Below, one piece after another: positions 4,575 to 30,283 of a DNA stretch of 30,770 nt. A program made the position numbers and the translations under genes. Positions within the stretch are counted from its first letter, which is position 1; every line of letters starts with the position of its first letter. Where the stretch lies: the IMG/VR virus record IMGVR_UViG_3300025132_000020, positions 1-30,770 of that record; one strand, 5' to 3'. Below the pieces are notes generated by a model. The model ran no database searches, had not been told where the DNA came from, and saw nothing but the letters and a program-made list of their open reading frames with translations. This DNA comes from a virus.

Positions 4575-5513
4575 ATGCCTTTACAATTTGGACGATCAGG
4601 CTTTATCAATTTAGGGGAAGAATCCAGCTACGGTTCGGCCTCATCTTTGACAGTGACAAATAGAATTGTGAGCGCAAGCTTGGCAGAGTCACAAGAGCGG
4701 TCAAGAAAGTCATTTTTAACGCAAAGCGGCGCAGCTTTTTCAGTCGGTCACTTTGATAACTTTCTCATGGTTGGTGGTTCTGTTGAACTTCCTTTGCTCT
4801 ATGAAGGATCAGGACTACTCATCAAAGCAGCATTGGGATCTGTTACCACAGCAGGAGCGGGCCCTTCTTATACGCACACCTTTGCAGCATCTGCCGATCT
4901 ACCCAGTTTGACCGTTGAGTTCCAAAGAGGTACGGGATCAAGTGAAAAGTTCTTGGGCTGCATGGTTTCAAGTATCTCTTTCAGTGGGGCAGCTGGTGAG
5001 GAAATTATGATGAGCGTTGACTTTATCGCTCAGGACGCAAACACCCGAACAGGAACAGCAAGCTCCACTTTTGGATCTGGTCGTCAAGTGTTCCACTTTG
5101 AGGCGGGTACACTGTCGTTTGGTGGTAACACTTACAATGTCAGATCCTTTGAGTGCACCATAGACAACAAGCTCGAAAGGCGGCAGGTGCTCGGAGACAA
5201 GAAGACACTTGAGCCTGCTATCAGTGATGTGCGGGAGGCTATGTTTAACCTCACGCTTGAAATGGAAGACGATAACCTGTATAACGCTCAACTAGCTGAT
5301 ACCACATCGGATGCGGTTCTTGTGTTCACCAATTCAGACAGTGACAGCATCACTTTTACGCTCAAAAATGCCTACATAACGGACTACAGTGATCCTGTTG
5401 CTACATTCGGCGCTTTGGAGCGTTCTGTTACCTTTATGGGCGAAGCTGACAGCAGCAACGAGGCGATCAGCATTGTGATTGTGAACCAACAAAGCTCAGC
5501 AGTTGCTAACTAA
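4575..5513 (+). CDS. Major tail (tube) protein
   Basis: 312 residues from ATG 4575 after TAGGAGAATAG. The start (MPLQFGRSGFINLGEESSYG) is typical of tail tube proteins, which open with a short strand and a G.E..YG turn. The body is made of beta strands: a long strand pair around VEFQRGTGSSEKFLGCMVSS, then ISFSGAAGEEIMMSVDFIAQ and a C-terminal Ig-like pattern. It follows the terminator and precedes the chaperone and tape measure genes, the normal place for the tube protein that polymerises around the tape measure. In this genome the usual contact to the chaperone gene is broken by a minus-strand cassette. Confidence 0.8.
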   Translation: MPLQFGRSGFINLGEESSYGSASSLTVTNRIVSASLAESQERSRKSFLTQSGAAFSVGHFDNFLMVGGSVELPLLYEGSGLLIKAALGSVTTAGAGPSYTHTFAASADLPSLTVEFQRGTGSSEKFLGCMVSSISFSGAAGEEIMMSVDFIAQDANTRTGTASSTFGSGRQVFHFEAGTLSFGGNTYNVRSFECTIDNKLERRQVLGDKKTLEPAISDVREAMFNLTLEMEDDNLYNAQLADTTSDAVLVFTNSDSDSITFTLKNAYITDYSDPVATFGALERSVTFMGEADSSNEAISIVIVNQQSSAVAN

Positions 5514-5553
5514 ACGAAAAAAGGCCCTTTTCAGGGCCGATCTTCTTTGGTTG
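5509..5553. repeat. 45-bp inverted repeat shared with 24216-24260
   Basis: The reverse complement of 5509-5553 is identical to 24216-24260 over 45 bases. It contains the terminator stem and flanking bases that need not be conserved for termination. This marks the 3' edge of a cassette that occurs twice in opposite orientations. Confidence 0.95.
5515..5538 (-). terminator. Rho-independent terminator of the - strand gene (also between convergent genes)
   Basis: On the - strand the sequence reads GGCCC TGAAA AGGGCC-type stem followed by TTTTTT (plus-strand A run 5515-5522, stem 5523-5538). The T-tract is on the - side, so it mainly ends the small gene 5825-5556. In the + direction the stem is followed only by TCTTCTTTGG, so it may partly stop transcription from the tail tube gene. 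Confidence 0.8.
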
Positions 5554-5555
5554 TC

Positions 5556-5825
5556 TTAGATTTTAACATTGTAATAAGTGCCCAGATATCCATCTAGCTC
5601 GCAGTTGTATGCTTCTATATCGTTAATTACTTGAGCATTTAGATTTTTTAAGTATTTAGCAATCATCTTCATTGTTTGCATGTCTTTTTCTTGATTGTCT
5701 TCTGTGAATAATGAGACGTTAAAACTTCCATCACCTAAAAATGTGACTGCAAATTCATCAGATGTTATAAGGATTTCTTTTTTTAGAAGATTTGAGATCT
5801 TTGTTTCTATTTGTCGAAGAGTCAT
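5556..5825 (-). CDS. Small unknown protein of an accessory cassette (moron)
   Basis: 89 residues; ATG at 5825 follows CAACAGGAT. I do not recognise the family. It is acidic, with helices at both ends (RQIETKISNLLKKEI, MQTMKMIAKYLKNLNAQVI) around a short beta pair (FAVTFLGDGSFNVSLFTED), and ends in YLGTYYNVKI. There is no signal peptide or membrane segment. It runs against the surrounding tail operon, between the tail tube and tail chaperone genes, and has its own promoter and terminator. Both control elements are repeated at the TerS-TerL cassette near 23.6-24.3 kb. This is the definition of a moron; a role in host interaction or anti-defence is only inferred. Confidence 0.8.
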   Translation of the reverse strand: MTLRQIETKISNLLKKEILITSDEFAVTFLGDGSFNVSLFTEDNQEKDMQTMKMIAKYLKNLNAQVINDIEAYNCELDGYLGTYYNVKI

Positions 5826-5858
5826 TTTGTTATCCTGTTGTTTGGTGTTTGTACTTTA

Positions 5859-5886
5859 ATAATACCATCTACACTATGAACCGCAA
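5859..5886 (-). promoter_or_regulatory. Sigma70-like promoter of the 5825-5556 gene
   Basis: On the - strand: TATAAAC, then -35 TTGCGG (5886-5881), a 16-base spacer and -10 TATTAT (5864-5859). The 62 bases from 5893 to 5832 match 23581-23642 at 59 positions. Confidence 0.75.
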
Positions 5887-5905
5887 GTTTATAATGTAAA
5901 ATAAA

Positions 5906-5980: not shown

Positions 5981-6499
5981 ATGAAGGATTTTTTAAAAGA
6001 GCTAGTACAGGATAGCTTCTGGCGGGTTGAGTGCTTTGGTGGGCAAGTACTCATCGAAGGCCGCATATTGACCCCAGCAGAAGCGGAACGGGCCGGTCTT
6101 GCCTCTTCCCTTATTGCAGCTCAGATCGTCAAAGATCAACGCAGTTCAGGCGCTCAGAACATCCAAGATATAGCAAACAAAGCTCAGGAGGGCGAAGACC
6201 TAAGCGAGCAAGAGCAAGATCAGCTCATCGGCTTTATGTCGTCTTTACGACCTGAGCAGCTTAGTGCAATGACAGATCAAGAAGACCGTATATTGTGCGA
6301 GGTTGTTAAAAGAGGTAGTTCTGATGCTGGCGTATCGTGGGAGCGGTTGTTTCTGGTAACGGGCATTGATCAGCAAAATCCTGATACGGGCGCTTTGTGG
6401 GTCGGTATGCTGAGCAAGGAAGACAGATCGGCAATCATGGACGCGGCCATGGAAGGACACAAGGAGGCCGCACAAAAAGCGGCGAGCTTTCGCGGATGA
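5981..6499 (+). CDS. Tail assembly chaperone (gpG-like), zero-frame product
   Basis: 172 residues from ATG 5981, seven bases after AGGAGG. Highly charged and helical, with no membrane segment (LTPAEAERAGLASSLIAAQI, DLSEQEQDQLIGFMSSLRPE). It stands immediately before the tape measure gene, the fixed place of the gpG/gpGT chaperones that coat the tape measure protein before tail tube assembly. The zero frame stops at TGA 6497-6499, but another frame continues to 6719 without interruption and joins the tape measure gene, so a recoded longer form is expected. Slip candidates are UUU-C at 6488-6491 (+1) and the A5 run at 6474-6478 (-2). Confidence 0.75.
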   Translation: MKDFLKELVQDSFWRVECFGGQVLIEGRILTPAEAERAGLASSLIAAQIVKDQRSSGAQNIQDIANKAQEGEDLSEQEQDQLIGFMSSLRPEQLSAMTDQEDRILCEVVKRGSSDAGVSWERLFLVTGIDQQNPDTGALWVGMLSKEDRSAIMDAAMEGHKEAAQKAASFRG

Positions 6500-18328: not shown

Positions 18329-18386
18329 GTGATCGTCTATGCGGATAACGGTTTTAAAAAAGATCAGTTATTTATATGATATAAAC

Positions 18387-18415
18387 TTGAGAAATATAAA
18401 AGACCGGTTTATAAT
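18387..18415 (+). promoter_or_regulatory. Sigma70-like promoter P1 of a small-gene cassette
   Basis: TATAAAC-type extension, -35 TTGAGA (18387-18392), 17-base spacer ending in CCGGTT, -10 TATAAT (18410-18415). Same arrangement as the promoter at 19544-19572. The 115-base stretch 18329-18443 holds only this promoter. Confidence 0.8.
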
Positions 18416-18443
18416 AGAGTATACCTAAACAACAGGAAACACC

Positions 18444-18640: not shown

Positions 18641-18673
18641 ACCAGCCCCGAAAGGGGCACCACCCAACAGGAG
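18641..18673 (+). promoter_or_regulatory. GNRA-loop hairpin plus ribosome site leader (copy 1)
   Basis: GCCCC-GAAA-GGGGC (18645-18658) followed by the constant ACCACCCAACAGGAG and the ATG of the next gene at 18680. Copies 2 and 3 have 6-bp stems with GCAA and GAAA loops. No T-tract follows, so this is a probable mRNA structural element between genes A and B rather than a terminator. Confidence 0.75.
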
Positions 18674-18679
18674 AAACCA

Positions 18680-19015
18680 ATGTATATTTATCGACACGAC
18701 ACAGCACAGATCGGACAGTTAGAGCTCAAGATCAAAACAGGCGAGAACATCGCATCAGACATGATCCGCAGCTACTATCACACAGGCGACAAGAGGATCA
18801 CCTTCAACAAGCACATGAATATGTTTGAGTGCTCAGAACACGACTATCAAGAGATCGCCTCATTGTTCTATCACATCGAGTTTTTAAGCGCCTCATTTGA
18901 TGCTTTGGGCTGGACACCAGCGGATCAGGGCGACTTTATGCAGCAGTATGATCATCTGTCCTTGTGGGATGGGTACTATGCCGCTGTTAATGCAATGTGT
19001 GAATTAATCGACTAA
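18680..19015 (+). CDS. Unknown acidic small protein (gene B of cassette 1)
   Basis: 111 residues from ATG 18680 after CAACAGGAGAAACCA. Acidic and rich in aromatic residues (IRSYYHTGDKRITFNKHMN, YQEIASLFYHIEFLSASFDA, GDFMQQYDHLSLWDGYYAAV). No membrane segment. I do not recognise the family. The size, acidity and early promoter resemble host-takeover or anti-defence proteins of phages, but no motif supports this. Confidence 0.65.
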   Translation: MYIYRHDTAQIGQLELKIKTGENIASDMIRSYYHTGDKRITFNKHMNMFECSEHDYQEIASLFYHIEFLSASFDALGWTPADQGDFMQQYDHLSLWDGYYAAVNAMCELID

Positions 19016-19408: not shown

Positions 19409-19541
19409 ATTTATGAGCAATGTGCATTATTTTATGCAGGATCATCATTTAATTATCAAATTTTTATTTATTATGATCGGCGCTGCGGCCTTCGGTTTTG
19501 TGGTGAATATGGATAAAAGATTAAAAAAAGATAGGTTATAA
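19401..19541 (+). CDS. 46-residue single-membrane-segment protein
   Basis: ATG 19401 follows GGAGCTAGAA with good spacing. The product has a hydrophobic segment of about 20 residues (IIKFLFIMIGAAAFGFVVNM) and a basic end (DKRLKKDRL), so the C-terminus should face the cytoplasm. Start overlaps the previous gene and the TAA at 19539-19541 overlaps the TATAAAC of promoter P2. Too small for simple family assignment; early membrane proteins of this type may affect the host envelope or superinfection, which is a guess. Confidence 0.6.
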   Translation: MTEFMSNVHYFMQDHHLIIKFLFIMIGAAAFGFVVNMDKRLKKDRL

Positions 19542-19543
19542 AC

Positions 19544-19572
19544 TTGAGAATTATGAAGAACCGGTTTATAAT
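19544..19572 (+). promoter_or_regulatory. Sigma70-like promoter P2 of a small-gene cassette
   Basis: -35 TTGAGA (19544-19549), 17-base spacer ending in CCGGTT, -10 TATAAT (19567-19572). The downstream leader 19570-19604 matches the - strand leader 30220-30186 at 34 of 35 positions. Confidence 0.85.
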
Positions 19573-19605
19573 AGAATATAACCAATGAGCAACAGGAGCT
19601 TAAAA

Positions 19606-19925: not shown

Positions 19926-19960
19926 ACCAGCCCCCGCAAGGGGGCACCACCCAACAGGAG
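19926..19960 (+). promoter_or_regulatory. GNRA-loop hairpin plus ribosome site leader (copy 2)
   Basis: GCCCCC-GCAA-GGGGGC (19930-19945) followed by the constant ACCACCCAACAGGAG, then AAACCACC and ATG 19969. Stem is one pair longer than copy 1 and the loop changes from GAAA to GCAA, both GNRA. Confidence 0.8.
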
Positions 19961-19968
19961 AAACCACC

Positions 19969-20129: not shown

Positions 20130-20378
20130 ATGAACAGATCAATAAAACAAAAAGTAGAGCAAATAACATCCCAATACCAAAGCATTTCTGAGTGTTTGGA
20201 GCACCTAAAAGCAGATTTTGAAAAAGTCTATTTTTTAGATGATCAAATTTCTAAGTTAAACACCAATGCTCACATTGTCGCTTTATTGGGTAGGCGAAAA
20301 ATGACAGAGGATATTGTAAATCAGATTAAAGACTTACAAAAAATGAAGAGTCAAATTCTTAACAGGAGAACACCATGA
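20130..20378 (+). CDS. Unknown coiled-coil small protein
   Basis: 82 residues from ATG 20130, preceded by AAACAGGAGAACACC; a longer frame from 20067 lacks a ribosome site. Predicted helical throughout (KQKVEQITSQYQSISECLEH, then VNQIKDLQKMKSQILNRR). The last codons form the ribosome site (AACAGGAG) of the next gene, which overlaps by four bases, so both are coupled. No known function. Confidence 0.65.
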   Translation: MNRSIKQKVEQITSQYQSISECLEHLKADFEKVYFLDDQISKLNTNAHIVALLGRRKMTEDIVNQIKDLQKMKSQILNRRTP

Positions 20379-20776
20379 ACAACGAAACATTACAGAACCT
20401 AAGAAAAGCGGGCTTTATCGTGAAGCTACAAGGCAAAGAGTTTGTTCTCTTTGCAGGGCTTCAAGTCCTTGCTAGAGAGCTGGGCCTTAAGAGCGTCAAC
20501 ACTGAGCTTGTAAGCATTGATAAAGACTCTCAGACCACGATCGACGGTGAGCAAACCGTAATAACAAAGGCGACAGGCTTAACGATATTTAAGGCCACTG
20601 TTAGCGGCGATATGGGCACATTCACCTCGTATGGGGACGCATCCCCTAAAAATGTTGGCAGGATGATCGCTCCACATCTGATCAGAATGGCCGAGACTAG
20701 GGCGATCGCTCGTGCGCTTCGGCTCTATTGTGCGATCGGCATGACCAGTCTTGAAGAACTAGGGGGTGGACAATGA
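20375..20776 (+). CDS. Rad52/ERF-like single-strand annealing protein candidate
   Basis: 133 residues from ATG 20375. N-terminal part with FVLFAGLQVLARELGLKSV, a beta segment with TKATGLTIFKATV and a conserved-looking C-terminus FTSYGDASPKNVGRMIAPHL then IRMAETRAIARALRLYCAIG. The arrangement of beta strands followed by an R..ETRA.ARALR helix resembles Rad52/ERF-type annealing proteins and related phage and archaeal proteins, though shorter than usual (often 150-250). If right, it anneals single-stranded DNA during replication-linked recombination. It could otherwise be an unknown nucleic-acid binding family. It overlaps the next gene by 4 bases. Confidence 0.45.
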   Translation: MNNETLQNLRKAGFIVKLQGKEFVLFAGLQVLARELGLKSVNTELVSIDKDSQTTIDGEQTVITKATGLTIFKATVSGDMGTFTSYGDASPKNVGRMIAPHLIRMAETRAIARALRLYCAIGMTSLEELGGGQ

Positions 20777-23124: not shown

Positions 23125-23537
23125 ACCCACAAAGACAAGCAATGATCATCGAGGCGCTACAGCTGGGAATGACGATCGAGCTTGCGTCAAAGTATGCGGG
23201 TATTGAGCAGAAGACTTTCTATAACTGGATGAACAGAGGTCGACGTGAAGGTGAAGGAATCTACTTTCAGTTTTTACAAGCAATTGAAAAGGCAATCGCT
23301 AAGAGCGCTTTGGTCAATATGGCAATCATTCAGAAGGCCGCTAAGGAAGGAACATGGCAGGCTTCAGCTTGGATTATGGAGCGGCGGCACAAGTATCATG
23401 CAAAGCAAGAGCCGGAGGTTATCGTGCAGATTGACGCAAAAGAAGCGAGCATCACACAGCTGATCCAGCAGGTCAAAGAGACAGATCTAGAGCTTGAAAC
23501 CTTTATAGCTGATCCTGTGATCGATCTTGATGAATGA
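23103..23537 (+). CDS. terS: Terminase small subunit (TerS)
   Basis: 144 residues starting at ATG 23103 after AGAGGAGGATGT. An N-terminal helix-turn-helix (MIIEALQLGMTIELASKYAG, IEQKTFYNWMNRGRREGEG) is followed by an oligomerisation core (FLQAIEKAIAKSALVNMAII, WQASAWIMERRHK), the standard arrangement of small terminase subunits that recognise phage DNA and start packaging. The C-terminal tail is acidic (ETFIADPVIDLDE). The gene is followed by a 50-base gap and a moron cassette rather than directly by TerL. Confidence 0.85.
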   Translation: MSRRTKLNPQRQAMIIEALQLGMTIELASKYAGIEQKTFYNWMNRGRREGEGIYFQFLQAIEKAIAKSALVNMAIIQKAAKEGTWQASAWIMERRHKYHAKQEPEVIVQIDAKEASITQLIQQVKETDLELETFIADPVIDLDE

Positions 23538-23587
23538 GGACGGGCGGGCTTGTTGAAAAAATAGTTATACTTTTCTTTGCTATAAAC

Positions 23588-23615
23588 TTGCGGTTAATAG
23601 TGTACATGGTATTAT
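23588..23615 (+). promoter_or_regulatory. Sigma70-like promoter of the TerS-TerL cassette
   Basis: TATAAAC then -35 TTGCGG (23588-23593), 16-base spacer, -10 TATTAT (23610-23615). The 62 bases 23581-23642 match 5893-5832 on the - strand at 59 positions. Confidence 0.75.
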
Positions 23616-23647
23616 TAAAGTACAAACACCAAACAACGGGATCGAAA

Positions 23648-24214
23648 ATGAACACCAATTATCACACAGTAAAAATAGACAACAAGCGAGTAAGACTAAC
23701 AAGCATGGAATGCTCAGTATACAATGCTGTAAAAACACTTAGCGAATATGAAGAGTGTTATGCCCTACATCCAGAAGATATAATGCATGAAACAGGCATT
23801 AGCATGAAGCAGCTAAGAGGCGTTATATCTTCACTTGTTAAAAAAGAACTTGCTTATGTGGATGAGTTAATTTGTGGTCGAGGGGATTGGGTTATTCTTT
23901 GGGAGCCTAAAGAAGAGAACGAAGAAGAGGCCGACAAAGAGGAGTTAAGAATAGAAGAGCCCACCAAGGAAGAAGTAAGCGAAGACAATATAAAATTTTG
24001 CATCACTGCACTGTTAGAGGTTAGATGGCCCCGCAAGCCAATAACCTCTAAAGACGAATTTAAGAAGGCTCTTTATGAAGAAACAATGCCAATGTGTGAG
24101 GTTATGTTTGGACTTATTAGCCTTCCAGTACCCAGCCCCTCAGAGCTAGATAAGCTTTGGTGCCGAGAGTTTGCTTATCTATATAAAACTGAAGGCCTTT
24201 ATATTGTCGAATAA
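23648..24214 (+). CDS. Winged-helix accessory protein between TerS and TerL (moron)
   Basis: 188 residues from ATG 23648, the first start after the promoter; a frame start at 23534 would lie before it and is rejected. Residues 18-85 look like a winged helix (MECSVYNAVKTLSEYEECYA, DIMHETGISMKQLRGVISSL, then WVILWEP), similar to MarR-like or replication-type DNA-binding domains. Residues 88-112 are an acidic linker (KEENEEEADKEELRIEEPTK). The C-terminal 75 residues are unassigned. Codon use is richer in A and T than the adjacent terminase genes. Own promoter and terminator, both repeated around the small gene at 5556-5825, show it to be an inserted cassette. A regulatory or host-directed function is inferred. 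Confidence 0.75.
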   Translation: MNTNYHTVKIDNKRVRLTSMECSVYNAVKTLSEYEECYALHPEDIMHETGISMKQLRGVISSLVKKELAYVDELICGRGDWVILWEPKEENEEEADKEELRIEEPTKEEVSEDNIKFCITALLEVRWPRKPITSKDEFKKALYEETMPMCEVMFGLISLPVPSPSELDKLWCREFAYLYKTEGLYIVE

Positions 24215-24215
24215 C

Positions 24216-24260
24216 CAACCAAAGAAGATCGGCCCTGAAAAGGGCCTTTTTTCGTTTAGT
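24216..24260. repeat. 45-bp inverted repeat shared with 5509-5553
   Basis: Identical to the reverse complement of 5509-5553. Marks the 3' edge of the cassette between TerS and TerL. It includes bases on both sides of the terminator stem. Confidence 0.95.
24231..24252 (+). terminator. Rho-independent terminator of the cassette gene
   Basis: GGCCCTGAAAAGGGCC followed by TTTTTT, 17 bases after the stop of the cassette gene. It would separate the cassette from TerL, so TerL must be transcribed by read-through or from an unseen promoter. Confidence 0.85.
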
Positions 24261-24275
24261 GGGATATATTGTCTT

Positions 24276-25760
24276 ATGAGCACCACATCAGATCGAACAA
24301 AGCTGGAAGAGTCGCTAACAGTACGACAGGAGCTACTCGCCTATATAAAAGCTTATCCTTTGGCCGCTGGTCGGCTTTGGGAGCCTTTCTGCTGTCGTTG
24401 GGACGGGTTGAGCGATCAGAGCGACAGGTTGCGCGGTTGTGGGCGAAGAATGCAGCGTGTAGGGGCTGGACTGTATCGCTGTGATCATTGCGACATCACC
24501 GAAGAACGCACCTCTCAGAAAGAAGCAATCCGATCTTTAGCGGAAGAAGCCACACTGATCAGCGGAGGCAACAGATCCGGCAAGAGCCACATGGGCGCAC
24601 AGCTGGCGGTTGCATTTGCGGCGGGTAAAGATGAGCGCTGGGTTATGGACTGGATCACACTCAATGAGATCCCGCCTGAGCTTATTCCTGATCGACCTTC
24701 GACTGTGTGGTGTGGCTCTTTGAGCTACAAAGACGGGCTTGAATACATGCGGCCTAAATTGGATCTCTTCCTGCCGACGAACACAAAGCGAATCCGGTGG
24801 AACAGTCAAGATCGGGCTGTTGCCATTTTGCCCAACAAAGGGCGGATCGTGTCTATGTCTTGTGATGCAGGGCGTGAGGCTTTTCAGGGTGGATCCGTGT
24901 CGATGGTTTGGCTTGATGAGGAGCCGCCTGAGCCGGTCTTTGAGGAGTCAATACTGCGGACAGTGGATCAGCGGGGGAGGGTTATTGTGACTGCTACACC
25001 GCTCAAAGGCCTAAGCTGGATGTTTGATCGCTTTGTTGAGAAACCGCCAGCAGGCTTTGCACGTGTTCAGATCTCGGGGCTTGATAACCCCTACATTTCA
25101 AGCGTCAAAATGAGGCGTGCTGTTAGCCATCTGAGCGAAGAGGCGCAGCAGTCTAGGCTCTTTGGTGAGTTTGCAGCTCAAACTGGTCTTATCTATTCAG
25201 AGTTTAGACCAGATCGCCACATAACCAAGATCGAAGAGTTACCGGATCATTGGCGCAGGTTCCGATCGATTGACTTTGGAACCTCACACCCGTTTTGCTG
25301 CTTGTGGTTTGCTGAGGCTCCAGCTGGTTATCTTGCTTCTGATCCGGTGTTGATTGTCTATGATGAGCTGTACTGGACAGAAAAGACCACATTAGAGAGC
25401 GGCAGGGAGATCTTGAGGCGCTCAAAGGGGCAGGATTTTGATTGGACTGTGGCGGATCCTGAATCTAGAGATGGGAGGCTCACATTGGCGCGAGAACTTG
25501 ATCTGAGAACCTTGGCGGCGCCAAAGCATTTTGGAGTGGTGGAAGGGATCAATCAAGTCAAAGAATTTCTTGCTTCTGATCTTGAGGGCAAAGTGAGACT
25601 GCTTATAAAACCGAAATGCAAGAACTTAATCAAAGAGCTTAAGCTCTACAAGTGGGATCAGAAAAGCAAACAGGACAAACCAATCAAGAAATACGATCAT
25701 GCGCTTGATGCTTTGCGCTATCAGATCATGCAATACAAGCGATTTTTAGCTCACAGGTGA
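24276..25760 (+). CDS. terL: Terminase large subunit (TerL)
   Basis: 494 residues from ATG 24276; earlier starts in the frame overlap the terminator. ATPase motifs: Walker A GGNRSGKS at 97-104, Walker B VWLDEEP at 211-217, motif III ATP near TATPLKG. Nuclease motifs of the RNase H-like domain: D333 (SIDFG), D394/E396 (ADPES), and D474/D478 (DHALDALRY). A Cys-rich segment before Walker A (about 40-70; CCRWDGL, RCDHCD) may be a small zinc site. The enzyme powers DNA translocation into the prohead and cuts concatemers. Confidence 0.95.
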   Translation: MSTTSDRTKLEESLTVRQELLAYIKAYPLAAGRLWEPFCCRWDGLSDQSDRLRGCGRRMQRVGAGLYRCDHCDITEERTSQKEAIRSLAEEATLISGGNRSGKSHMGAQLAVAFAAGKDERWVMDWITLNEIPPELIPDRPSTVWCGSLSYKDGLEYMRPKLDLFLPTNTKRIRWNSQDRAVAILPNKGRIVSMSCDAGREAFQGGSVSMVWLDEEPPEPVFEESILRTVDQRGRVIVTATPLKGLSWMFDRFVEKPPAGFARVQISGLDNPYISSVKMRRAVSHLSEEAQQSRLFGEFAAQTGLIYSEFRPDRHITKIEELPDHWRRFRSIDFGTSHPFCCLWFAEAPAGYLASDPVLIVYDELYWTEKTTLESGREILRRSKGQDFDWTVADPESRDGRLTLARELDLRTLAAPKHFGVVEGINQVKEFLASDLEGKVRLLIKPKCKNLIKELKLYKWDQKSKQDKPIKKYDHALDALRYQIMQYKRFLAHR

Positions 25761-25762
25761 AC

Positions 25763-26530
25763 ATGAAAAAAACAAAACCATTAAAACCATTTTTTAAGTA
25801 TTACGGGAGCAAATGGAATCTAGCTAGATATTACCATTGCCCACAGTACAAATTGGTTATAGAACCATTTGCAGGCAGTGCTTGCTATGCCCTACATCAC
25901 TGGTCAAAGAATGTAATCCTCAACGATTTAGACGAGAATATATATCAGCTGTGGCATTACTTGATCAATGTTAAGGCCTCCGAGATTAAATCATTGCCCT
26001 ATTTGCAGCCTGATCAAACCGTTGACGATCTTAAAATTTGCAAAGAAGCTAAGATTTTAATCGGATTTTGGATCGGGTTTGCCTGTTCTGCTCCCAAGAA
26101 GACACAGTCTGAAACAGTAACCAAGGCCCAGATTAAACACCCAAACCAATGCCTAACATGGGCCGATCCAGCCAAGCAGAGAATAATTGAACAACTGCCG
26201 AAAATCAGACACTGGAAAATCACAAACAAAAACTATTATCAAATGAAAAACTACAAAGGCACATGGTTTATAGATCCGCCCTATGAGGTCAAAGGGAAAT
26301 ATTACAGAAAATCAAAAGTTGATTATGAGCGATTGTCTATCTGGGCTCAAGATAGGCGAGAGCAATACATTGTTTGTGAGAATAATGGCGCGCAATGGAT
26401 GAATTTTACACCTTTTAAAACAATGCACAACCAACACAGAAAAAACAGAGATGAAGTTGTGTGTAATTTTGGCTTTGGTACAAATACACAACAGATCACA
26501 ATCTGTGATATATTACGCTCAAAGAGGTGA
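25763..26530 (+). CDS. Dam-like (D12 class) DNA N6-adenine methyltransferase
   Basis: 255 residues from ATG 25763 (a GTG at 25757 is also possible). Motif X FFKYYGSKW at the N-terminus, motif I EPFAGSACYALHHW, NDLDE, and motif IV DPPYE at 171-175, in the alpha-class order of Dam/D12 methyltransferases. Composition is more AT-rich than the surrounding packaging genes. It is inserted between TerL and portal, genes that are normally adjacent, so it is probably an acquired moron. The genome has about three times the expected number of GATC sites by hand count, consistent with GATC specificity, but the target is not proven. Confidence 0.88.
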   Translation: MKKTKPLKPFFKYYGSKWNLARYYHCPQYKLVIEPFAGSACYALHHWSKNVILNDLDENIYQLWHYLINVKASEIKSLPYLQPDQTVDDLKICKEAKILIGFWIGFACSAPKKTQSETVTKAQIKHPNQCLTWADPAKQRIIEQLPKIRHWKITNKNYYQMKNYKGTWFIDPPYEVKGKYYRKSKVDYERLSIWAQDRREQYIVCENNGAQWMNFTPFKTMHNQHRKNRDEVVCNFGFGTNTQQITICDILRSKR

Positions 26531-26532
26531 TT

Positions 26533-28230
26533 ATGTCTGATCTAGAAAAGAGACAGGGTTATTTTGTTCGCTTGTGGGATGCGATCACGGGCAAGTCATA
26601 CGCTCAACCTGTAGCAAGACCCAAAGAAGAAAACAGGGGCGCTGCTTGGGCCGCCCCTGCTGGTGTTCGGCCTACTTACTCACAAGGCGCATCATTGGCC
26701 GCTTATGGTATTCATGGATACACACATGCCGCAGCTAAGCGAAGCGCTCAGGATCTTGCAGCACTGCCGATCAAGCTACTCAAAGGAAAGGGCGCAAACA
26801 CTGAAGAGATCGGGGAGTCTGATGTGCTCGACCTGCTCGATCAACCCAACAGCAAAGAAAGCGGTTTTATGTTTAGAGAGTCGCTACTCACTGATTTGAT
26901 GCTTGCGGGTAACTGTTACATTTTGCTCCTTGGGCCTCGTGATAACCGGCCTTTGTCGCTGGTTAGATTACATCCCGATGAGGTTAGGATCGTCACAGAT
27001 CCAAAGATGGGGATCACTGGATACGAACACAACAGCAGTGGATCTGTCGTTCTCTATCCTCCTGAGCGGGTGATCCACGGTAAGAACTACAGTTATGCAA
27101 AGGGCGCTCAGTCTGTCTATGGTTGCGGCGCTGTTGAGGCCCTAAGCAGGGAGATCGATGCGGATCTTAACGCTCAAAAGCTAGCATCAGATGCAAGTGC
27201 TAAGGGTCGACCTGATATTCTGCTCTACCCAAAAGAAGACGGGGACATTTGGCCCTCTGAAACAAGGCGACAAATTGCGGATCAGTACAGCGGGCTAGCT
27301 TCAGAAGGTGGTGCTCTTGTGCTCAGTGGACAGGTAGAAGTTAGAGAGCTTCAACTGTCACCACGTGAAATGGAATTCGAAGCATCGAGACGCATGGCCA
27401 GAGAGTCAATATCTGCGGTGATGGGTGTGCCGCCTACGATATTGGGCCTCCCTAGTGCAAATTATGCCCTTGGGCGACAACAAGCGATCAACTATTGGAC
27501 TGTTCAAATCAAGAAGGGTAAGCAGTTCGGCGAGCTGTTGACCTTGATCGCTCAACGCTTTAACCCTGATTACAGGATAGAGCACGATTACAGCGGGGTA
27601 GAAGCTTTGCAAAGCGTGAGAACAGAACAGCTCAACAGGGTGCAAATGCACATCCTCAACGGTATAGATCCACAAGCAGCATATGCCGCAGAAGGTCTTG
27701 ATTTTCCAAGCGTGCAACCTGATCCGGCCGACATCGGGCAGGAGGAAGATGAGAATGCCCGCCTGTTTGATCATCTGCTGATCGAGACTCGAATCTATGA
27801 TCCCGAATATGCAGATCTGGCAGTGAGCAAAGACGCAGGTAATCCACAGCAACAAAGCCACGAGGACATCAGGCGATCTGTTCTTGGTTCTCCTCCAAAT
27901 TGGGAGCGATACAGAGAAGCACATGCGCTCTATAATCCAGAGCAGGATCAAATGCTCGACGGTTATTTGTTGCTTATTGCAAGACGAGAAGACCCACAAG
28001 ACCCCACAAACGCAGCACCTGAAGAGGGGCGTCTTGTGGTCTATCAGGATCTGCTCAGCCGGGCCGTCGATCTCCTCAATGGCGCAGAGGGCAGGCTTGC
28101 AATCACTGAAGAAGAGCGTGAGCGGGCATATCGTGTGATCTCAAGATACTACGACAAGCTCGGGCAAGATGCTCCAGCTTTGTCGCCTGTTTACCTGAGT
28201 CTTCAACCGAAAAAAAAAATTCTGAGATAA
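26533..28230 (+). CDS. Portal protein
   Basis: 565 residues from ATG 26533 after AAAGAGGTGATT. HK97-type portal features: SLAAYGIHGYTHAAAKRSAQ, LDLLDQPNSKESGFMFRES, LTDLMLAGNCYILLLGP, LVRLHPDEVRIVTD, and the stem/wing region with ISAVMGVPPTILGLPSANYA. Residues about 440-550 form an additional domain (NWERYREAHALYNPEQDQML, GRLAITEEERERAYRVISRY) typical of phage head proteins and not of a plain portal. The end of the gene contains a run of ten A (28210-28219) just before the TAA; a -1 slip there would enter the following MuF frame. Confidence 0.9.
   Translation: MSDLEKRQGYFVRLWDAITGKSYAQPVARPKEENRGAAWAAPAGVRPTYSQGASLAAYGIHGYTHAAAKRSAQDLAALPIKLLKGKGANTEEIGESDVLDLLDQPNSKESGFMFRESLLTDLMLAGNCYILLLGPRDNRPLSLVRLHPDEVRIVTDPKMGITGYEHNSSGSVVLYPPERVIHGKNYSYAKGAQSVYGCGAVEALSREIDADLNAQKLASDASAKGRPDILLYPKEDGDIWPSETRRQIADQYSGLASEGGALVLSGQVEVRELQLSPREMEFEASRRMARESISAVMGVPPTILGLPSANYALGRQQAINYWTVQIKKGKQFGELLTLIAQRFNPDYRIEHDYSGVEALQSVRTEQLNRVQMHILNGIDPQAAYAAEGLDFPSVQPDPADIGQEEDENARLFDHLLIETRIYDPEYADLAVSKDAGNPQQQSHEDIRRSVLGSPPNWERYREAHALYNPEQDQMLDGYLLLIARREDPQDPTNAAPEEGRLVVYQDLLSRAVDLLNGAEGRLAITEEERERAYRVISRYYDKLGQDAPALSPVYLSLQPKKKILR
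28210..28219 (+). other. A10 slip site: probable -1 frameshift from portal to MuF
   Basis: The portal frame reads CCG AAA AAA AAA ATT CTG AGA TAA. Moving back one base gives CCG AAA AAA AAA AAT TCT GAG ATA and enters the MuF frame, which is open from 28122 to 29438. Any 3-base step within the A run permits tandem slippage with full re-pairing. A one-base homopolymer assembly error is the alternative. Confidence 0.6.
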
Positions 28231-28289: not shown

Positions 28290-29438
28290 TTGTTTGATCC
28301 TGCTTATGCGGCAAAGCTCAAAGAGGAGCACCCGAAGATCTGGCGGGCTGGTGGCAACATACGAGGCAATGACCAGTACAGAAGACTCACGCCAATAGTA
28401 AAGAACAACGGTGTCCCCACATCGGAATCAGAAGAGAACGCTATAAGGCTTAGAGAAGCTTGGATCGCTAGACATGAGGGCGACGGGGCACAATTCAGAG
28501 ACAAGGATCACCCGATCAATCTGTCTACCGTTGCGGGCCTTGTGGCTCAGGTCAAATGGTACGGGGTAAGCGTGATCGGTGAGAGTAGAATGAAGCAGGT
28601 TCTCAACGAGCTAAAGCGCAAACTCGACAAGGAGGATCGATCATTTACGCCAGAAGAGCGGGCGGACATGTGGCATGCTTGGGTTGAGCGATCACAGCGC
28701 AAAGCAGAAGAGGGTATTAAAAGGCGTGTAAATGGCTATTTAAGGGGCGCAAAGAGGCGCTTTGTGCGAATAGTCGAAGAGAACAGCGAGCAGGGCTTGC
28801 TTGATGTAGTACGGGCGCAGAAAGCGGAAGAGTTAAGACTGCTGAAACAAGGTTATCAGGGTGAGTTTGTTAAGTGGTTTATGCTCACAGGTAATGCAGA
28901 GCTGGATCGGGTCTTCCGAATTGCGGATGTGGCTAGACCGCTTGATCTGGTCTTCGGTCGTCGTGATCTTGCTGTGCAGCTGTCGAATAAAGCAGCAAAA
29001 GAAATGACGAACACCACGATCAGCAGTGTAGAGTCAATCATTCAGCGGGGCCTAACATCGGGCGCAAGTGTGCCAGATATAGCCGCAAGCCTTGCGCAAA
29101 TAACCGACGACCTAACCAAAAGCAGAATATTCTCAGACAGTAGAGCGTTAGCAATAGCAAGAACCGAAAGCACCAAAGCGCTCAATGCCTCAACGGATCA
29201 AGCCTATCGACAAGCAGCTACAGCAGGGATCAACATTCAAAAGCAGTGGCTCAGCTCAAGGGATGCAAAAGTGAGAGCGGCACACGCGGAGCTTGATGGT
29301 GTGGTCGTTGGAGTCAATGAGGAGTTTGAGAGCGAAGGATATACTAGCGCTTCACCGGCTAACTTCGGTGATCCGTCGCTCGATGTTAACTGCCGGTGCA
29401 CTATTATCCCCGTTATTGATGGTAAGACAGACCTGTAA
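28290..29438 (+). CDS. MuF-type phage head morphogenesis protein
   Basis: 382 residues if started at TTG 28290. The frame is open upstream to 28122 and encodes RGDDLKVSLRSSQWKLFDP before the TTG, a segment that looks conserved, so the product likely starts earlier through the portal frameshift. The N-terminal part (KIWRAGGNIRGNDQYRRLTP, IRLREAWIARHEG) and the C-terminal Mu gpF/SPP1 gp7-like domain (LAIARTESTKALNASTDQAY, SRDAKVRAAHAELDGVVVG, DVNCRCTIIPV) identify a minor head protein that is packed in the capsid with the portal. No ATG or GTG start is available in this frame between 28122 and 28290, and TTG 28290 has no strong ribosome site. Confidence 0.85.
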   Translation: MFDPAYAAKLKEEHPKIWRAGGNIRGNDQYRRLTPIVKNNGVPTSESEENAIRLREAWIARHEGDGAQFRDKDHPINLSTVAGLVAQVKWYGVSVIGESRMKQVLNELKRKLDKEDRSFTPEERADMWHAWVERSQRKAEEGIKRRVNGYLRGAKRRFVRIVEENSEQGLLDVVRAQKAEELRLLKQGYQGEFVKWFMLTGNAELDRVFRIADVARPLDLVFGRRDLAVQLSNKAAKEMTNTTISSVESIIQRGLTSGASVPDIAASLAQITDDLTKSRIFSDSRALAIARTESTKALNASTDQAYRQAATAGINIQKQWLSSRDAKVRAAHAELDGVVVGVNEEFESEGYTSASPANFGDPSLDVNCRCTIIPVIDGKTDL

Positions 29439-29793: not shown

Positions 29794-29799
29794 GGTGTT

Positions 29800-29834
29800 C
29801 TCCTGTTGGGTGGCGCCCCCTTTCGGGGGCTGGT
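29800..29834 (-). promoter_or_regulatory. GNRA-loop hairpin plus ribosome site leader (copy 3, - strand)
   Basis: On the - strand: GCCCCC-GAAA-GGGGGC (29830-29815), then GCCACCCAACAGGAG and the ATG of the next gene at 29793. Stem and loop of the same type as copies 1 and 2. Confidence 0.8.
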
Positions 29835-30185: not shown

Positions 30186-30217
30186 TTTAAGCTCCTGTTG
30201 CTCATTGGTTATACTCT

Positions 30218-30246
30218 ATTATTAATCAGTATTTTATACATTGCAA
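30218..30246 (-). promoter_or_regulatory. Sigma70-like promoter P3 of the - strand cassette
   Basis: On the - strand TATAAAC, then -35 TTGCAA (30246-30241), 17-base spacer, -10 AATAAT (30223-30218). The following leader matches that of P2 at 34 of 35 positions. Confidence 0.8.
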
Positions 30247-30283
30247 GTTTATATATAAAAAAAACTCAAAATAAATATCATTC

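Follow-up and report, generated by a model that had tools for sequence, protein, structure and literature searches.

Two loci in the structural half of a tailed phage of about 30 kb are probably fixed accessory slots, each holding a moron-type unit with clade-specific ends in which the ORF turns over, is replaced within the clade by homologous exchange and would act early in counter-defence or host takeover. Comparison with related phages reveals constant flanks and brackets around variable ORFs, empty alleles, ORFs that relocate and AT-rich cargo. The sequence analysed is IMG/VR record IMGVR_UViG_3300025132_000020 (30,770 bases), referred to hereafter as the window; a repeat search of the record found a 99-base terminal direct repeat. 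The phage encodes a Phage_capsid (HK97-type) capsid protein and a PHROG 290 tail protein, is not T4-like, and no lysogeny genes were seen in the window. An unguided repeat search returned two inverted pairs of arms, 5832-5893 with 23581-23642 (62 nt, 59/62 or 95% identical) and 5509-5553 with 24216-24260 (45 nt, 45/45 or 100%). That is, the original prediction that the units at 5509-5893 (minus strand) and 23581-24260 (plus strand) have a promoter-leader and a terminator in common proved correct. The 45-nt terminator occurs in just two copies in the whole record. The two loci, named site A and site B, are made up as follows.

4575-5513, plus strand: core gene flanking site A, tail protein (PHROG 290)
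5509-5553, minus strand: right bracket of site A, rho-independent terminator, 45/45 match to 24216-24260
5556-5825, minus strand: cargo ORF Y89 (89 aa), between the site A brackets
5832-5893, minus strand: left bracket of site A, TATAAAC/TTGCGG/TATTAT promoter-like sequence with leader and RBS (CACCAAACAACAGGAT), 59/62 match to 23581-23642
5981-6499, plus strand: core gene flanking site A in a tail assembly-type position, adjoining the tail gene in the empty-site relatives L014/G2, L011 and L012
23085-23537, plus strand: core gene flanking site B, terminase small subunit (terS)
23581-23642, plus strand: left bracket of site B, the site A promoter-leader again, preceding different ORFs in L003 and L008
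23648-24214, plus strand: cargo ORF X188 (188 aa), between the site B brackets
24216-24260, plus strand: right bracket of site B, the site A terminator again, also in L003 and L008
24276-25760, plus strand: core gene flanking site B, terminase large subunit (terL)

Relatives were obtained from TerL and tail-protein searches of IMG/VR and form a close clade (L003-L017, TerL mostly 91-98% identical in amino acids) and a wider clade (TerL about 49-65%). The sample is small, with three near-complete genomes plus short fragments; G2 (3300029309_000235, L004 and L014) and G4 (3300030406_005472) are both near 29.6 kb. Among the best matches listed from characterised phages TerL identity is below 30%, and a TerL profile retrieved no relative from bacterial and archaeal genomes, so that no host or prophage was found. 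The core genes around the slots stay put, with 72-94% nucleotide identity among relatives, and gene order is alike in G2 and G4. Within this conserved frame the terminator bracket was found in six places, namely window A, window B, L003 B, L008 B, L016 A and G4 A, where it accompanies ORFs of 89, 188, 120, 141, 99 and 81 aa, respectively, that show no pairwise similarity at E<0.05. The claim that the same brackets would enclose different ORFs in related genomes is thus supported by six brackets with six unrelated ORFs at two loci, and in IMG/VR the terminator extends beyond the window's own genome to four related records.

At site A, the terminator follows an unrelated ORF of 81 aa in G4 and another unrelated ORF, of 99 aa, in L016; the window and L016 have TCTAAGACAACCAAA in common, running from the stop codon into the terminator. 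The site is empty in G2 (L014), L011 and L012, in which the tail genes lie about 90 bases apart. At site B, L008 has a 141-aa ORF inside the same leader and terminator as the window, and in L003 a Mom-like fragment precedes a unit made up of leader, 120-aa ORF and terminator. In G2 the site is occupied by a Mom-like ORF alone, without the terminator, in G4 by an 88-aa ORF with a diverged promoter and likewise no terminator, and in L005 it is empty. In the wider clade (TerL 54-65%) the bracket cassette is absent between terS and terL, where other small genes are found. When the window is compared with L003 and L008 at site B, identity extends across the leader, breaks off at the ORF's first codon and is restored at the terminator. 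Such breaks at the bracket borders plausibly fit ORF replacement at these points, and much the same pattern would result from crossovers in the core genes on either side. In the L016 contig, sequence of an unrelated phage takes over at 870-900, on the upstream side of the ORF; the changeover falls at ACAACAGGACAACAAAATG, which occurs both in the leader and in the NTTGQQN repeat of a fibre-like gene, and the contig is probably an assembly chimera joined at this short shared word.

Two near-identical brackets in one genome could also have arisen if a single gene had been duplicated along with its signals and the protein had then diverged. We regard this as extremely improbable. Profile and predicted-structure comparison bore out the claim that the two bracketed proteins are unrelated: Y89 and X188 give an hhalign probability of 2.9%, differ in length (89 versus 188 residues) and are predicted to have unlike secondary structures and different folds. 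Y89 was modelled as alpha-beta-beta-alpha-beta-beta (pLDDT 79). The single-sequence model of X188 has a winged-helix domain plus helices (pLDDT 63), with a MarR-like winged-helix N-terminal domain at residues ~5-75 (about 70 matched) and a low-confidence remainder; it matches PHROG 18303 (7e-8). Moreover, Y89 has true relatives elsewhere, kept at 80% and 49% identity in other phages, and is therefore not a fast-diverging copy of X188. On this evidence duplication with divergence is refuted as it had been formulated.

Pfam and PHROGs yielded no named family for Y89 or X188, and PADLOC no defence family. A Foldseek search with Y89 returned nothing at a confident level, the top hit being a permuted ribosomal protein S6 at E 1.4e-3. 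Among characterised phages there was no match to Y89 and no bracket, and X188 was matched in its winged-helix region only. Both ORFs are AT-rich, with a GC content of 30.4% (Y89) and 39.5% (X188) versus 46.5% for the genome and 44-51% for core genes; Y89 lies lower than all 381 core windows of equal length. Among the other ORFs at such sites are ArdC-N (anti-restriction, E 1.5e-15) and, probably, a Mom-like protein of the DNA-modification type (E 2e-4, under the Pfam curated cut-off). These occupants suggest a counter-defence role for the cargo class, a role which by association Y89 and X188 may have as well.

The 62-nt element is a member of a promoter-leader family with five copies in the window and more in relatives, characterised by TATAAACTTG, a -10-like box 16-17 bases past a -35-like box, and a CAACAGGA leader ahead of the start codon. 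Three members lie outside sites A and B, at two further accessory sites, C and D.

18380-18441, plus strand: related promoter-leader at site D, from repeat search and family alignment
19537-19598, plus strand: related promoter-leader at site D, from repeat search and family alignment
30192-30253, minus strand: related promoter-leader of the site C accessory operon (genes 30185-29847 and 29793-29503), a member of the family

TTGCGG, read as the -35-like box, is a weak sigma-70 match and was left unflagged by a consensus scan; the promoter reading is credible because sister elements in the same genome have TTGAGA-17-TATAAT. The conserved leader CAAACAACAGGA ahead of the ATG is not unique to the A/B pair, being present on many accessory or early genes of the window and absent from nearly all structural genes. 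At -16.9 kcal/mol (z -3.5), the predicted fold of the 45-nt element is that of a rho-independent terminator. The stop codon of the upstream tail gene 4575-5513 comes from the outer end of the site A terminator (CTAAACG on the plus strand); the tail gene ends in TAA via the terminator end when site A is filled and in TAG in the empty alleles. Exact scans of IMG/VR with the 23-base terminator core and with the 42-base leader found nothing because the loop and spacer vary in relatives, and relaxed patterns worked. With these, matches to the terminator alone across the entire IMG/VR collection were confined to the window's clade, and the promoter alone found L003 and L008; three extra promoter-pattern matches (L055-L057) lie inside unrelated contigs and were dismissed as chance.

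A plain regulon would account for part of this picture: the same polymerase and timing would select similar early promoters and terminators, and ORF turnover would be independent of them. The five family members in the window, the further ones in relatives and the CAACAGGA leader, which marks accessory or early genes in general, all speak for it, and regulatory function alone can keep brackets alike without recombination. We nevertheless consider the regulon quite unlikely as the explanation, since the A and B promoter-leaders agree at 95%, spacer and leader included, versus 64-69% with the other family promoters of the window, since the two terminators are identical to the letter, loop included, and since the limits of the ORFs coincide with those of the brackets in L003 and L008.

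Several ORFs change locus between phages. G4 (L006/L013) has a homologue of Y89 with 80% amino acid identity at site C, which lies past the head gene 28290-29438, and the distant phage L054 has one with 49% in its early region. At site C of G4 homology to the window spans the ORF and the adjacent leader; the promoter is different and no terminator follows. A family of 87 aa is represented at site C of L012 and, with 63% identity, at site D of G4. L012 also has ArdC at its site C, and L041 has it (66%) elsewhere in the genome, under a promoter of another type. The 99-aa ORF of L016 has a 50% relative in L045 that lies 3′ of a methylase and has promoter-like and terminator-like sequence of its own. 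Furthermore, L029 contains a relative of the L008 site D gene, and L033 a partial relative of the second gene at site C. ORFs thus travel more widely than the brackets, and outside the clade they sit within each lineage's own regulatory ends. Distant moves did not use the present bracket, because the cross-lineage homologues lie in different ones. In the wider clade, L041 (2480-2960) and L029 (2050-2420) have a promoter segment of their own (TTTACT...TATAAT with a ACTAACCAA leader) after a terminator-like end, and this segment precedes a variable gene at one place, either ArdC with a 116-aa ORF or the relative of the L008 site D gene.

Relocation of ORFs is also what a strict, integrase-free cassette system would produce, in which the brackets are dedicated recombination targets and crossovers within promoter-leader and terminator swap ORFs between non-allelic sites (A, B and others). 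Y89 occurs at three loci, and the leaders of L003 and L012 resemble mixtures of both promoter-leader types. In addition, the A and B brackets of the window (95% for the promoter-leader and 100% for the terminator) resemble each other more than B resembles its orthologues in L008 (87% and 87% by global alignment), as would be seen with exchange or copying within a genome. Over 107 positions there are 3 differences between A and B of the window versus 11 between the window and L008 at B, which hints at copying inside the genome; with a Fisher test p of about 0.05 on positions that are not independent, the difference is marginal. Against such a system, an ORF common to both A and B was seen in none of the relatives compared, Y89 at site C has a different promoter and lacks the terminator, and A and B are mutually inverted, yet no inversion product was found and gene order is equal in G2 and G4. 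We therefore rate strict swapping between sites as possible but rather unlikely. Of the original proposal of a cassette system without an integrase, the part that stands comprises the same brackets around different ORFs, the empty sites, the moving ORFs and the lack of an integrase among the window proteins scanned. That the brackets themselves are the recombination targets is no more than plausible: they are confined to the clade, selection on their regulatory role would keep them similar in any case, distant homologues of the ORFs lie in other brackets, and the excess similarity is marginal.

Occurrence of the ORFs at different loci might equally point to a transposon- or homing-type mobile element carrying them. 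This is very unlikely, and the transposon reading was rejected: neither a transposase nor an integrase was found among the window proteins scanned, no target-site duplication is visible between the filled and empty site A, and none of the cargo ORFs could be assigned to a family of nucleases or transposases.

According to the fixed-slot reading, each slot would be an autonomous transcription unit consisting of a promoter, a leader with RBS, one ORF and a terminator, and the clade-specific promoter-leader and terminator would be kept at the slot while the inner ORF turns over or the slot is empty. As judged from these signals, the ORF may be expressed early or constitutively from the leader, and the terminator would insulate the unit from late transcription. 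Replacement of the ORF would proceed via ordinary homologous exchange (host RecA- or phage annealase-type) in co-infection, with crossovers in the conserved flanks or brackets that would place one ORF border at the leader/RBS and the other at the stop codon/terminator; the brackets are plausible places for such recombination. The cargo ORFs would serve counter-defence or host takeover. A stronger version, which we think unlikely, is a dedicated integrase-free exchange platform where crossovers concentrate in the promoter-leader and terminator and a counter-defence pool is plugged into equivalent sockets. If it were true, small ORFs from across the clade could enter several sockets per genome with expression guaranteed on arrival. 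A second type of bracket, possibly an intercistronic version of this socket idea, is present in G2 too and in a variant form in L012. It consists of a GC-rich hairpin followed by a CACCCAACAGGAGAA RBS and lies between accessory genes at sites C and D.

29798-29834, minus strand: second bracket type, intercistronic GC hairpin plus RBS, with repeats at 18646-18682 and 19926-19962 (plus strand)

Among known systems, morons are defined by sequence in lambdoid and other phages (PMC4378225, PMC1524935, PMC2629481). Sites A and B are alike in that a single ORF has its own predicted promoter and terminator, sits between genes that are adjacent in relatives (empty B in L005; empty A in L014/G2, L011 and L012), deviates in base composition (30.4% and 39.5% versus 44-51% GC) and is represented by different genes at one place in different relatives. 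They differ in that two loci per genome, and the loci of relatives, have near-equal promoter-leaders and terminators around unrelated ORFs. In Mu-like Pseudomonas phages, no flanking sequence common to the morons could be recognised, and how they are acquired was described as mysterious (PMC4378225). Unlike morons without common flanks, the present units have flanks that are common, short and identified, with both empty and filled alleles, and shared borders could explain moron-like gene exchange. The slot picture fits the proposal of a single ancestral insertion and later, repeated modification of that one place (PMC2629481). The brackets offer a concrete place for crossover mapping, and the sequences between them are a simple source of new counter-defence candidates.

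The PeSL (promoter-early stem-loop) motifs of T4-type phages (Arbiol 2010, doi 10.1093/gbe/evq006, and Comeau 2014, doi 10.1093/gbe/evu129, as cited in PMC4503421) are repeated promoter/terminator elements at small variable ORFs and reportedly bring about shuffling of genes among close relatives. Variable ORFs between repeated regulatory motifs in close relatives are found here as well. In contrast to PeSLs, the window is not from a T4-type phage, its A and B promoters and terminators lie on opposite sides of the ORF whereas a PeSL is one composite intergenic motif, and the A/B bracket has at most two copies per genome. PeSLs, although different in anatomy, come nearest among known systems as a precedent for small ORFs being shuffled by repeated regulatory ends. 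Integron cassettes are similar in having unrelated ORFs between constant borders; they differ from the present units, each of which has its own predicted promoter and terminator and is not known to have an attC-like site, and no integrase accompanies these in the scanned proteins. Sites A and B are best regarded as autonomous expression units of the moron type whose ends are shared and specific to the clade, and which in function come close to the T4 PeSL concept.

Some further features of these genomes were noted. The frame of X188 is open upstream across the promoter-leader (window 23534-23647) to an ATG overlapping the terS stop codon, as it is in L008 with an unrelated ORF but not in L003, and a 38-residue N-terminal extension of X188 might be translated from late transcripts. 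A D12-class adenine methylase gene (window 25757-26530) lies between terL and the portal gene in the window and L005; it is absent in L003, L004/G2 and L007, where the portal gene directly follows terL. The portal gene itself has about 400 extra bases in L003, L004 and L007 relative to window 27757-27796 (688 versus 567 residues). The gene at 20375-20776 was suspected by eye to encode an annealing-type recombinase, a suspicion that was dropped after a Pfam and solved-structure profile search gave nothing. Its product is a short conserved protein with NVGRMIAPHLIRMAETRAIARAL, encoded in the early operon of the window and on the minus strand of site C in L034 (6524-6898).
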